Positions 836-11,659 of a stretch of 32,910 nucleotides of DNA are shown here, piece after piece. Numbering within the stretch: the first letter of the stretch is position 1; every line of letters begins with the position of its first letter. This DNA is from Bacteroidales bacterium (GTDB lineage Bacteria; Bacteroidota; Bacteroidia; Bacteroidales; JAFGHD01): contig JAFGHD010000017.1 in the NCBI GenBank assembly GCA_016939365.1, forward strand, positions 1 to 32,910. Direction: 5' to 3'. A program made the position numbers and the translations under genes. Under the pieces are notes generated by a model that worked only from the letters and a program-made list of their open reading frames with translations, was not told the DNA's origin and made no database searches.

Positions 836-2011
836 ATGGACAGGAATTTTACATTTTCACCCGGACTGAGATATATTACTTACGGACTGATGATCCTGGG
901 GGTGGGCGCCTTACTGACCGGGGCCTTTAGCGATCCTGTGCGCACATGGGCCAACCTGTTGCTGAACAACTTCTACTTCCTCTCCCTGGCCATCGGCGCC
1001 TCTTTTTTCCTGGCATTGCAGTATATCACCCAGTCGGGATGGTCCGCAGCATTCAAAAGGATTCCCGAAGCCATGGGCAATTATATTCCGGTGGCGGCAT
1101 TGATCATGATCCTCCTGTTATTTGTCATGAGATCGCTTTATTCATGGGTGGATCCTTCCACAGGAAACTTTGACACCCATGAGCTGCATCTGCTGGAACA
1201 TAAGGAAACATACCTGAACGTGCCGTTTTTCATTGTTCGTATGGTGATCTATTTCGCCGTATGGATATTGATGACCGGCCTGCTCAGGAAATACTCCCTG
1301 CGTGAAGATCTCGAAGGGGGCCTCGACTGGTTCCGCAGGAGCGAGTTCTATTCGAAGGTGTATATCTTTACCCTGGCGCTGACCTTCTCACTGGCCTCAT
1401 TTGACTGGATCATGAGCCTTGAGCCTACATGGTACAGCACCATCTTCTCACTTAAGAATTTCGTGGCTGCATTCTACCACGGATCCGCTATCATCGTTCT
1501 GATCGTGGTGCTGATGCATCATTACGGTTACTTTCCGTTCATCAACAATGCCCACTGGCACGACTTTTCAAAGTATGTCTTCATTCTCGCCGTGATCTGG
1601 GCATACTTCTGGTTGTCGCAATACCTGTTGATCTGGTATGCCAATATCCCCGAGGAGACGATCTACTATTACAAACGTCTTCAGGGCCCCTGGGAGGTCT
1701 TGTTTTACATTAACCTGATCCTCAACTGGCTGGTGCCGTTCATAGTGTTGCTGTCGAATTATTTCGCCAGGAAGAAGACGGTTCTGGGCATCGTGATCCT
1801 GTTCCTGATCATAGGCCAGTGGACGGACCTGTTCGAGCAGATCATGCCGGCTGTCACAGAAGGCCTCCGTATCGGATTCCTTGAGGCCGGGCTCTTCCTG
1901 GGCTTCGCCGGTCTTTTTATTTTTGTCTTTGCCTGGACGCTGAGCAAGGCGCCGCTTATCCCGAAGAACCATCCCTACCTGACCGAAAGCCTGCAACATT
2001 CGGATCATTAG
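836..2011 (+). CDS. actF: ActF, quinol:electron acceptor oxidoreductase membrane subunit
   Basis: A 391-aa integral membrane protein with about ten hydrophobic helices, for example around residues 12-32, 45-62, 82-100, 133-150 and several between 175 and 375. It is the second large quinone-side membrane subunit of alternative complex III, related in fold to the NrfD/PsrC-like subunit ActC. Length, helix density and position after actE agree with this. It is the last gene of the operon in this window: a convergent gene begins to be read from the other strand 105 bases downstream, and no cytochrome oxidase genes follow, although these often do in related operons. Confidence 0.88.
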   Translation: MDRNFTFSPGLRYITYGLMILGVGALLTGAFSDPVRTWANLLLNNFYFLSLAIGASFFLALQYITQSGWSAAFKRIPEAMGNYIPVAALIMILLLFVMRSLYSWVDPSTGNFDTHELHLLEHKETYLNVPFFIVRMVIYFAVWILMTGLLRKYSLREDLEGGLDWFRRSEFYSKVYIFTLALTFSLASFDWIMSLEPTWYSTIFSLKNFVAAFYHGSAIIVLIVVLMHHYGYFPFINNAHWHDFSKYVFILAVIWAYFWLSQYLLIWYANIPEETIYYYKRLQGPWEVLFYINLILNWLVPFIVLLSNYFARKKTVLGIVILFLIIGQWTDLFEQIMPAVTEGLRIGFLEAGLFLGFAGLFIFVFAWTLSKAPLIPKNHPYLTESLQHSDH

Positions 2012-2116: not shown

Positions 2117-2782
2117 CTAACCGTTGAACCCTTTCACTTTTTCGATACGCATGGCAAAGGGTACATTTTTATGCGAAAAAGTGTATTCGGTCGACAATTC
2201 GGATTCTGTTTTGGATGTAAGTTCGAGGTTTGCTTTCGGTATGGCAGCCTCCAGCTCGGCCTTGACCTGTGTATCAATCACGATTTTGATCCTGCCGTAG
2301 TAAAGCTCTGTGATCAGGAACACCCTGCGGATGTTGCCATCGTAATCGTCCCAGTTGTTTTTCTTCAACAGCTCGAGCAAGCTGTCGATCCGAACCCTCT
2401 GGAGGTTGTCCATGGCGCGTGCCTGCAGATCACCGAAGGTGAATTTCCGGACCAACCCCAGGTTGAACTGGCTGGAAAGCTTACCGATCTGCGGGTTTTC
2501 CAGTGCGATGGCTGTTTCAGTATCGAGTTCCACCGTGCGTTCGGCGAAGTGGGCTTCCACAAGGGCCGTAGTGCGCAATGCATCCAGAGAGGACTTCCAC
2601 TCCGTCTGATCCATGATGTTGGCATCCAGAAAAGCATTGTAGATATTTTCGGGCATGCCGTTATGATCCAGCTGCGGCTTGCCGAACAGAGGATCCCAAA
2701 CGAGGGTGCCGATAATGATATTTTCCTGTGAGGCCGGGATGAGTTCCAGGTCGTACTGTCTGCGAAATTTTTTGATTTCCAT
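2117..2782 (-). CDS. Unrecognised 221-aa protein; possible gasdermin-like fold
   Basis: I do not recognise this protein by sequence. The start is placed at the ATG 2782-2780 (MEIKKFRRQYDLELIP); an in-frame start 42 bases upstream adds an unconvincing tail. There is no signal peptide, membrane helix or cysteine, so it is probably soluble and cytoplasmic. Visible strand/helix order: an N-terminal LELIPASQENIIIG segment, an acidic helical middle, a strand pair around QFNLGLVRKFTF, helices near residues 125-145, RRVFLITELYYGRIKIVID, then ANLELTSKTESELSTEYTF and a final VPFAMRIEKV. This order of strands recalls the pore-forming gasdermin domain, but the N-terminal Cys and the inhibitory tail of bacterial gasdermins are absent, as is an adjacent protease. 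It is the last gene of a minus-strand series and converges on actF. The gasdermin idea is inference only. Confidence 0.75.
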   Translation of the reverse strand: MEIKKFRRQYDLELIPASQENIIIGTLVWDPLFGKPQLDHNGMPENIYNAFLDANIMDQTEWKSSLDALRTTALVEAHFAERTVELDTETAIALENPQIGKLSSQFNLGLVRKFTFGDLQARAMDNLQRVRIDSLLELLKKNNWDDYDGNIRRVFLITELYYGRIKIVIDTQVKAELEAAIPKANLELTSKTESELSTEYTFSHKNVPFAMRIEKVKGFNG

Positions 2783-2947: not shown

Positions 2948-3904
2948 TCAGAATCTTTTGGTATATATATGGCAGTAAGGACTGCCCCCTTTGTTCAGGT
3001 AGTAATCCTGGTGGTACTCCTCGGCCGGGTAGAATTCTGATGCCGGGGTAACCCGGGTGGCCACCTTGCAGCCATTGTCTTTGAGGATACCGATGAGCCT
3101 TTCCGCAACCTCCTTCTGTGTTTCGCTCGTATAAAATATCTCCGATCGGTATTGTTCTCCGATGTCGGGGCCCTGCCGGTTCACCTGTGTGGGATCATGG
3201 GTCTCGAAGAAGAGACGCGCCAGCTCTTCGTAAGTCACACTGGAGGGATCGAAGATCACCTCCACCGCTTCGGCATGACCAGTGAGACCGGTACAGACTT
3301 CCCTGTAGGAGGGATTCTTAACACTGCCACCTGTAAATCCCACCGTGGTCGAGATAACGCCCGGCACCTTCTGCAGGTGGTATTCCGTGCCCCAGAAACA
3401 TCCGGATGCAAAGATGGACCGTTCGGTTCTGATCGCAGCTTCCTGACCGGCAGGGACGAAATTCATCGAGATGGAGTTGACGCAGTGCCGGGTGTTCTTT
3501 GGAGTGAAGCCTTCACCCTCAAAGACATGGCCCAGATGGGCGCCGCATTTCGCGCAAGTGATCTCAGTACGGAATCCGTCGGCATCCGGTACTCTCTTCA
3601 CTGCCCCGTCGATCTCATCGTCGAAGCTGGGCCAGCCACAGTGCGAGTCGAATTTGTCGGACGAACGGTACAGTTCCGCACCGCAACGTTTGCATGTGTA
3701 GGTTCCATCTTCATGATGATCGGCATATTCACCGGTGAAGGGCCTCTCCGTCCCTTTATGGACGATCACCCGTTCCTCCCCGGGTGTCAGCGGATTGAAT
3801 TTCATATGCATGTTTGTTTGATTTTCCTGTGAGCAGGCAGTCAGGCTGATGAATACAGCCAGTGCAGCTGCCGGCGTAATTTGCTTCAACATAACCTTTC
3901 TCAT
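2948..3904 (-). CDS. msrBA: Lipoprotein MsrB-MsrA fusion, methionine sulfoxide reductase
   Basis: A 318-aa fusion that repairs oxidised methionine in exported proteins. It begins with a lipoprotein signal (SLTAC, lipid Cys24). The MsrB domain (about 35-155) has zinc-ligand pairs CKRC (71, 74) and CAKC (117, 120) and the catalytic Cys141 in RHCVNS, reducing the R-epimer of Met-sulfoxide. The MsrA domain (about 162-318) has the catalytic Cys169 in GCFWG and the family stretch YHQDYY near 297-302, reducing the S-epimer; Cys311 near the end is a candidate resolving residue. There is no thioredoxin domain like that of the PilB-type three-domain enzymes, so a separate electron donor is required. 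The lipid anchor and the lack of an early Asp after Cys suggest a periplasmic or outer-membrane location. Confidence 0.95.
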   Translation of the reverse strand: MRKVMLKQITPAAALAVFISLTACSQENQTNMHMKFNPLTPGEERVIVHKGTERPFTGEYADHHEDGTYTCKRCGAELYRSSDKFDSHCGWPSFDDEIDGAVKRVPDADGFRTEITCAKCGAHLGHVFEGEGFTPKNTRHCVNSISMNFVPAGQEAAIRTERSIFASGCFWGTEYHLQKVPGVISTTVGFTGGSVKNPSYREVCTGLTGHAEAVEVIFDPSSVTYEELARLFFETHDPTQVNRQGPDIGEQYRSEIFYTSETQKEVAERLIGILKDNGCKVATRVTPASEFYPAEEYHQDYYLNKGGSPYCHIYTKRF

Positions 3905-9828: not shown

Positions 9829-9903
9829 TCCGCCGTTGCCGGCGCACGATCCCGTTTCTGATCATCTCATCGGGTTTCATGGTTTTATTCATTCGCTGAA
9901 ACA

Positions 9904-9934
9904 GAAAATCCTGCCCGGGATGGGCAGGATTTTC
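9904..9934 (+). terminator. Perfect 13-bp hairpin after the TonB receptor gene
   Basis: GAAAATCCTGCCC (9904-9916) and GGGCAGGATTTTC (9922-9934) are exact complements around the loop GGGAT. With A-rich upstream and T-rich downstream arms it can act as a terminator in both directions. It ends receptor transcription 76 bases past the stop. Confidence 0.8.
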
Positions 9935-10138
9935 AAACCAAAACCAAAAACCATGAAAATTTACCTTTATACTGCTAACGTATTTTCCGGATGCTTATTG
10001 CATATTTCAGACGCTTGCAGCCGTACAAAGGTTGCATGTCTAAACAGATTTTTTATGTTTTTGTTCAAGGTTTTTCCTCGCACAACTCCTTTCTGCGATA
10101 CCGGTTCACTTTCAGCATGCGGGTTCAGACGAAGTCGC

Positions 10139-10146
10139 TATTTTTG
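10139..10146 (+). promoter_or_regulatory. -7 promoter box for the C69 peptidase
   Basis: TATTTTTG, an exact TAnnTTTG match, ends 46 bases before the ATG at 10193 and is downstream of the preceding terminator. No clear -33 element is seen. Confidence 0.45.
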
Positions 10147-10192
10147 TCTTTTAGGTTTGCATAATACCATTCTTTACCAAAGGAGATTCTCT

Positions 10193-11659
10193 ATGGGCAG
10201 GATTCACAAATTACTCCGGACAGTTGCACGGTTTTTACCAATGTTGTTTCTCCCGGCCGTTTTCGGCCAGAACCATGGGTCCGCCGGTATGGACTGTTTT
10301 TCGATCCTGGTAGGCCGGGATGCCTCTGCAGATGGATCTGTCCTGTTTGCCCATAACGAGGATGACTATGGAGAGAGGGTGGTGAATATTTATAAAGTCC
10401 CGGTCCTGGAACACGGGCAGGGGGCTTCGGTACGGCTGAAGGAAGGCGGCACGTTGGAGCAGGCACCCGTTACCTGCAGCTTCCTCTGGCTCGAAATGCC
10501 TGAGATGGATTTTTCTGATGGTTATATGAATCAGTATGGTGTCACCATTGCTTCGGATGCATGTCAATCCCGCGAGGACAACCCTGAATTCACGGATGGT
10601 GGCATCGGATACTGGTTGCGGCGGATCATGGCCGAGAGGGCACGAAATGCGAGGGAGGCAGTTGATATCTGCGGAGAGCTGGTGGAGTATTTCGGATATA
10701 CCGGATCGGGAAGAACCTATTGTGTCGCTGACCCCTGCGAGGCCTGGATGGTGGCTGTCGTCAAGGGCAAGCACTGGGTCGCACAGCGTGTGCCTGAAAA
10801 CCAGGTAGCCATCATACCGAATTACTACACAATATCGGATGTTCACCTGGATGATACTCTGAATTTCCTGGGCTCTGGTGACCTGATCCTGTATGCCGAA
10901 CAAAGAGGCTGGTATGATCCCGCGCAGGGTGCGTTTTCATTCCGGGAAGCTTATAGCAGTCCGGGGGCACTGACTCACACAGAGAATATAACCCGGCACT
11001 GGAGCGCAATGACATTGCTTTCCGGAAAGGAATACCAGACCGGTGATACCTTTCCGTTCTCCTTCATTCCTCCGGGAAAGATAGGCCTGCCGGACCTGTT
11101 CGGCGTGCTGAGGGATCATTATGAAGGAACGGAACTGGACCTCACTGGATCATATGAAAAGGGCAATCCCCATGAGCATGGAGCGAGAACGATCTGTGCC
11201 CACACCACGCAATACGGGTTTGTGGCACAGTTGCGCAACGGGATGGATCCTGCAGTGGGAGCTGTACTCTGGCTGGCACCGCACCGGCCCTGTGTACACC
11301 CGTTCGTACCATGGTACGCCGGATTACAGGAGATACCTGAAGGCTTTGCCCGGGGAACCTATTTAACCGCCCTGGAGGAGCATTTCATTCCTGTCGGTGA
11401 TATGAAGGATTACCTGCCGGTTCACATGTTTATCAAATACACCGCCCATGCCCGGGAGATTGATGAAGCATACCTGGAAAGAATCTATCCGATAAGGGAA
11501 ATGATCGTGGAAGCCGAACGGGATTTCATGGAACGGCAGATCCTTTTGGAGCAGGAAGTCCGGGAAATGACCGATCCGGATCAGGAAGAGATCGGAAACA
11601 TGCTCCTTGGATTCACCCTGGAGTGCCTGCTCAGATCGCAGGAGATGATGGAGCAATGA
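10193..11659 (+). CDS. C69 family peptidase (dipeptidase, Ntn-hydrolase fold), exported
   Basis: A 488-aa protein. The ATG at 10193 is chosen because AGGAG precedes it by 7 bases and a signal peptide follows (residues about 5-25, ending VFG-Q). The domain opens with MDCFSILVGRDASADGS and FAHNEDD, the signature of C69/U34 dipeptidases, in which Cys35 would become the N-terminal nucleophile after processing. Later family stretches include NQYGVTIASDACQSRE, IGYWLRRIMAERARNAREAV and TYCVADPCEAWMV. It should hydrolyse dipeptides or short peptides in the periplasm or outside the cell. The GH92 mannosidase follows 97 bases downstream on the same strand, which hints at joint degradation of glycoproteins. 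Confidence 0.88.
   Translation: MGRIHKLLRTVARFLPMLFLPAVFGQNHGSAGMDCFSILVGRDASADGSVLFAHNEDDYGERVVNIYKVPVLEHGQGASVRLKEGGTLEQAPVTCSFLWLEMPEMDFSDGYMNQYGVTIASDACQSREDNPEFTDGGIGYWLRRIMAERARNAREAVDICGELVEYFGYTGSGRTYCVADPCEAWMVAVVKGKHWVAQRVPENQVAIIPNYYTISDVHLDDTLNFLGSGDLILYAEQRGWYDPAQGAFSFREAYSSPGALTHTENITRHWSAMTLLSGKEYQTGDTFPFSFIPPGKIGLPDLFGVLRDHYEGTELDLTGSYEKGNPHEHGARTICAHTTQYGFVAQLRNGMDPAVGAVLWLAPHRPCVHPFVPWYAGLQEIPEGFARGTYLTALEEHFIPVGDMKDYLPVHMFIKYTAHAREIDEAYLERIYPIREMIVEAERDFMERQILLEQEVREMTDPDQEEIGNMLLGFTLECLLRSQEMMEQ

Follow-up and report, generated by a model that had tools for sequence, protein, structure and literature searches.

A 221-residue Bacteroidales protein with a predicted gasdermin fold but no inhibitory tail, cysteine or adjacent protease

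A 221-residue protein encoded in a 32,910-nucleotide stretch of Bacteroidales DNA (contig JAFGHD010000017.1; the whole stretch is called the window below) almost certainly has the fold and the ancestry of a gasdermin, as judged from structure prediction and sequence profiles. Gasdermins are proteins that kill cells by punching holes in membranes, and the known bacterial gasdermins (bGSDMs) act in phage defence. The canonical bGSDM defence system comprises a C-terminal inhibitory peptide, a palmitoylated N-terminal Cys and an adjacent protease (CHAT or trypsin-like). By sequence and predicted model, the window protein is placed within the gasdermin fold superfamily and outside this canonical system, of which it is not counted as a member because tail, N-terminal Cys and adjacent protease, three defining features, are all absent. 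We infer that it must have another form of control or another job. On balance, it is best read as an NTD-only gasdermin homologue, probably a membrane-binding pore former that would be controlled without cleavage.

The gene is here assigned to the minus strand, a detail missing from the first-pass annotation, and reads from 2782 to 2117 (221 aa plus stop). Its neighbours are an ActF-like gene on one side and a fused MsrB-MsrA gene on the other:

836 to 2011, plus strand: polytopic membrane protein, putative ActF-like subunit of an alternative complex III cluster (named from sequence and context; no Pfam match), convergent with the gasdermin gene
2117 to 2782, minus strand: CDS of the 221-aa tail-less protein with predicted gasdermin fold; stop codon at 2117-2119
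2948 to 3904, minus strand: fused MsrB-MsrA methionine sulfoxide reductase (Pfam), upstream of the gasdermin gene and on the same strand

An in-frame upstream ATG at 2824 would give an alternative 235-aa product; the start at 2782 is favoured because the homologues begin with MEIKKF or MEIRKF. The segments quoted in the first-pass annotation (LELIP, QFNLGLVRKFTF, RRVFLITELYYGRIKIVID, ANLELTSKT...STEYTF and VPFAMRIEKV) are all present. An overlapping plus-strand ORF (2084-2731) was rejected as a gene; it looks like a shadow, since no full-length counterpart occurs among the ORFs listed for the homologue L002. Full-length homologues with 47-57% identity occur in other Bacteroidota, three further ones (51-53%) were obtained by an added search of genome contigs, and of the more distant homologues, one has 29-30% identity and several have 19-26%. 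Relatives are present in 12 of 393 genomes of the order, and the window's own genome has a single copy of the gene. Among 22 members of the focal family that were compared, 21 are exactly 221 aa long and one has 225 aa; 19 are devoid of Cys, and three carry one Cys each, at position 69. Pairs with more than 80% identity have dN values of 0.04-0.12 and dS values mostly of 0.7-2.8, with pairwise dN/dS of about 0.03-0.12 where computable. Since full-length homologues exist and the ratios are this low, the ORF is, by sequence comparison, a real gene beyond chance, and by the same measure it is under strong purifying selection. Standard annotation overlooks the protein, for which direct HMM look-ups found no match in the Pfam, NCBIfam or PADLOC models.

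AF2 models of the protein were produced at first from six sequences (pLDDT 81) and later from 27 homologues (pLDDT 86.6; five consistent models, 80-87). The predicted helices (H) and strands (E) are H3-10, E26-31, H47-53, H59-70, E84-86, H88-93, H97-103, E111-123, H126-147, E151-170, H171-183, E188-193, E197-202 and E210-215. The following parts are of interest for the comparison with gasdermins:

2753 to 2776, minus strand: residues 3-10, predicted N-terminal helix at the gasdermin alpha1 position (AF2); no Cys
2645 to 2710, minus strand: residues 25-46, strand beta1 (predicted) and the loop after it, in which LVWD and GMP are conserved (AF2, alignment); putatively where gasdermins have their beta1-beta2 membrane loop
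2273 to 2452, minus strand: residues 111-170, predicted long strand-helix-long strand of the twisted-sheet core (AF2; aligned to gasdermins)
2138 to 2221, minus strand: residues 188-215, predicted closing strands including VPFAMRIEKV (AF2); the protein ends six residues later

In the predicted model, the central antiparallel sheet is twisted, and strands and helices follow one another in the gasdermin order. In Foldseek, the top four rows were chains of 7N52 (Runella gasdermin; E 9e-5 to 2e-4, probability 1.0). In VIA-align, all 19 best PDB entries were gasdermins (Z 10.4 to 6.8), followed by the first unrelated entry at 6.1. The best match was the Vitiosangium bGSDM 7N51 (Z 10.4, 190 residues, rmsd 3.7 Å); 7N50 reached Z 9.7, bacterial oligomer and pore models 9.5 and 9.1, the mammalian gasdermins B, D, E and A3 8.7-6.9, and Trichoplax entries 7.0 and 6.8. 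The match to the bGSDMs (Vitiosangium 7N51, Bradyrhizobium 7N50, Runella 7N52; PADLOC PDLC02986) is full-length, with Z 9.1-10.4 over 187-201 residues, and the strand order is common to both. The gasdermin-like order of strands that had been suggested from reading the sequence is therefore upheld by structure prediction and by both fold searches, which match nothing else well. The earlier six-sequence model gave the same answer, and the match was not forced by the input because neither alignment included a tailed bGSDM. Cholesterol-dependent cytolysins resemble the model at low Z only (4-5), as would be expected for a wider resemblance among pore formers. Moderate TM-scores (about 0.5) and a sequence identity of about 10% to solved gasdermins could suggest that the protein has another fold and that its model resembles gasdermins by chance; this is very improbable, as the two models agree, all top rows are gasdermins standing well above unrelated folds, and independent links exist between sequence profiles.

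A PDB sequence search with the protein alone or with the alignments A2 and A3 gave no meaningful matches, and the gasdermin link therefore needs folds or stepwise profiles. A search of the order with the PADLOC bGSDM model yielded tailed bGSDMs in seven cases (L019-L025) and short proteins in five (L026, L027, L028, L029 and L030), L028 being the same gene as L016. Relatives of the window protein score on this HMM, namely L016 at 7.7e-6, L014 at 1.4e-4 and L003 weakly at 0.03. With hhalign, the focal family and the seven tailed bGSDMs align colinearly over 199 columns with a score of 31.6, against 16.5 for the reversed and at most 18.8 for shuffled controls. The direct profile similarity between the two is weak, with a probability of 21-26% without the remote relatives and 68% with them; stepwise, the probability is 99.6% from the focal family to the remote relatives (L014-L016), 93.7% from the focal family to a second short group (fgw, see below) and 89.7% from fgw to the tailed bGSDMs. 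The profile check thus leads from the relatives to both the PADLOC bGSDM model and the local tailed bGSDMs, and homology to gasdermins is supported separately by sequence comparison and by the predicted fold.

Bacterial gasdermins are described in reviews as held off by a short C-terminal peptide and switched on by a protease; their C-terminal regions range from a dozen to about 100 residues, and cleavage is required (PMC12547243, PMC11760362). Unlike them, the window protein has no C-terminal peptide, and its match to 7N51 stops at residue 222 of a solved chain of 263. The protein continues for 10 residues beyond the last core strand motif (PFAM/PFGM) in 22 of 22 focal members, versus 25-53 in the seven tailed relatives (9-12 in L014-L018, 6 in the fgw group), in agreement with the absence of an inhibitory tail stated in the first-pass annotation. 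The absence of a palmitoylatable N-terminal Cys, stated there as well, holds for the window protein, which contains no Cys at all, but is no special trait of this gene: among the seven tailed, protease-linked bGSDMs of the order, four also lack one, so that this absence alone is not telling. The third difference, the absence of a linked protease, was equally borne out. A Pfam scan of the window neighbourhood found no CHAT or trypsin-like protease, no such gene was seen in the neighbourhoods of the tail-less genes when these were read by eye, and none of the CHAT and Trypsin_2 matches in ten focal-family genomes shares a contig with the gasdermin. CHAT and trypsin-like genes are almost ubiquitous, so that their presence somewhere in a genome says nothing. 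The protein also differs from the bGSDMs in escaping detection by their family model.

Among the tailed bGSDMs, L019, L021, L022, L023 and L024 have an adjoining CHAT gene according to Pfam, the match beside L023 being at 0.002 and those of L021 and L023 just under the curated cut-off. L025 is adjoined by the same type of TPR protein, read from sequence only, and L020 by a protein that matches Trypsin_2 in part and PADLOC protease types weakly. The TPR-CHAT protein of 1083 aa at L061:10432-13683 lies at a distance of about 350 bp from L024, a tailed gasdermin whose tail is short (25 residues past the motif) and which has no Cys; the two are likely a protease-gasdermin pair. In the window, a gene of the Peptidase_C69 (dipeptidase) family is found at 9836-11659, 7 kb from the gasdermin gene; to our knowledge, this family is not among the protease classes that activate gasdermins.

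The protein might act as an abortive-infection effector that is activated by an unlinked protease or sensor, with cleavage in a loop rather than in a tail. The phage-defence role of known bGSDMs, the CHAT and trypsin-like proteins on other contigs of these genomes and the patchy distribution in the order would fit such a role, which we nevertheless regard as improbable: tailed relatives keep an adjoining protease and tail-less ones do not, no tail is available for cutting, and the locus is a fixed core one in one family. In this sister family (f8), one genus has the gene in 14 of 18 genomes (the four that lack it are 65-85% complete) and a second genus in 4 of 4; it is present in 0 of 6 genomes of the other genera. 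In 14 of 15 stretches from f8 it adjoins a CvpA-family gene and then tyrS, and the fifteenth stretch ends before that side. Such a fixed chromosomal site sets this one family apart from bGSDMs, and here a near-universal gene beside cvpA and tyrS does not look like a mobile defence gene. Searches of viral contigs and of phage and plasmid collections gave no relatives, and consequently there is no sign of mobility by these routes. Outside f8, the gene is found at different sites. The only other genome of the window's genus that was compared (G001) has no gasdermin copy; at the site, between msrAB and actF, it has an NnrE-like gene (L055:1771-2514; NAD(P)H-hydrate epimerase N-terminal type, named from sequence). 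Given the fixed locus in f8 and the absence from G001, some lineages keep the gene stably and others have gained or lost it.

Toxicity would be expected of a pore former that has no tail and is constitutively expressed. Truncated tails in known bGSDMs lead to growth arrest (PMC10989679), and a core gene product with pore activity would accordingly need some brake. The main alternative is that the gasdermin fold has been repurposed: lytic pores would be lost and the protein would have a steady, non-lethal role at the membrane such as lipid binding, scaffolding or repair. Near-universality in two genera beside core genes and purifying selection speak for this, no brake of any known kind was found in the protein, and the amphipathicity of the family average is not striking; PMC8742441 also deals with gasdermin relatives that have lost the ability to form pores. 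On the other side, the full-length strand order and core and the basic alpha1 residues are retained, and the gene is dispensable in the window's genus, as the NnrE-like gene takes its site in G001. We regard repurposing as possible but rather unlikely, and favour the cleavage-independent pore former over it.

A pore former of this kind would stay inactive in the cytosol, either monomeric or self-associated, bind the inner membrane via the basic alpha1 helix and the beta1-beta2 loop, and oligomerise into pores on a cue other than tail cleavage; candidate cues are a partner protein, a change in lipids or ions, or simply raised expression. The basic residues 4, 5 and 7 of the alpha1 helix are nearly invariant among the 221-aa family members; together with the LVWD...GMP loop they are compatible with membrane contact rather than proof of it. 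A scan for the amphipathic strands of membrane hairpins gave a suggestive result for the window protein (RIKIVIDTQVK) and no clear-cut one for the average of the family. The mode of working could resemble that of the NTD-only gasdermins known from Trichoplax, a disulfide-locked dimer, and from Neurospora, where two variants must meet (PMC12547243, PMC11760362), minus the disulfide lock or the paired alleles. TrichoGSDM (8JYV/8JYW; fold match Z 7.0) is activated without cleavage (PMC12547243) and is a disulfide-linked homodimer with the Cys in the beta1-beta2 loop, a lock that is impossible for the window protein because it has no Cys. The fungal RCD-1-1/RCD-1-2 (8JYY, Z 5.3 with the six-sequence model) are likewise NTD-only and cleavage-independent (PMC12547243, PMC11760362); RCD-1 kills only when two antagonistic variants meet, whereas the window family has one copy per genome searched.

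In the AlphaFold DB, non-annotated clusters with gasdermin structure were reported, one of them near the bacterial type; in the accessible part of that paper proteolytic activation is indicated for them, and a tail-less, protease-free bacterial group is not described (PMC10584675). No description of such gasdermins was found in the openly accessible papers that were searched. The family is well conserved, with the gasdermin fold kept and the inhibitory peptide and protease lost, and is a core gene in some genera. It makes testable whether bacteria use gasdermins without cleavage, as Trichoplax and Neurospora do, and what else the gasdermin fold can do. Tentatively, and with rather less than even confidence, we propose a clade of pore-domain-only bacterial gasdermins, with neither protease nor Cys lock and controlled without cleavage, that may be kept as a core gene in some lineages; their role would be in housekeeping or development and not in suicide alone. 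The tree separates the tail-less proteins from the tailed bGSDMs (99/96); the branches are long, and a single loss of the tail is for this reason not proven by the tree.

Tail-less relatives recur elsewhere in the class, where L066, L067 and L069 also stop shortly after the motif. L017 and L018 (neighbourhoods L041 and L064), which come from two genomes of a single genus, constitute a third tail-less group; their site is conserved, is flanked by hemB-like and LptB-like genes and has no protease neighbour. The second tail-less, gasdermin-like group (fgw) consists of L026:1486-2127 (minus strand), L027:1462-2103 (plus), L029:1378-2022 (plus) and L030:1333-2019 (plus), which are 203-204 aa long, have a PFGF/PFGVxGF ending and are detected by the PADLOC bGSDM model. 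A CvpA-like gene is located about 3 kb from the L029 gene (L062:13001-13516); in f8 the focal gene adjoins cvpA directly, and the parallel may be a coincidence. Three of the four fgw proteins have a Cys near position 40, close to the expected beta1-beta2 loop, which recalls the disulfide position of TrichoGSDM.
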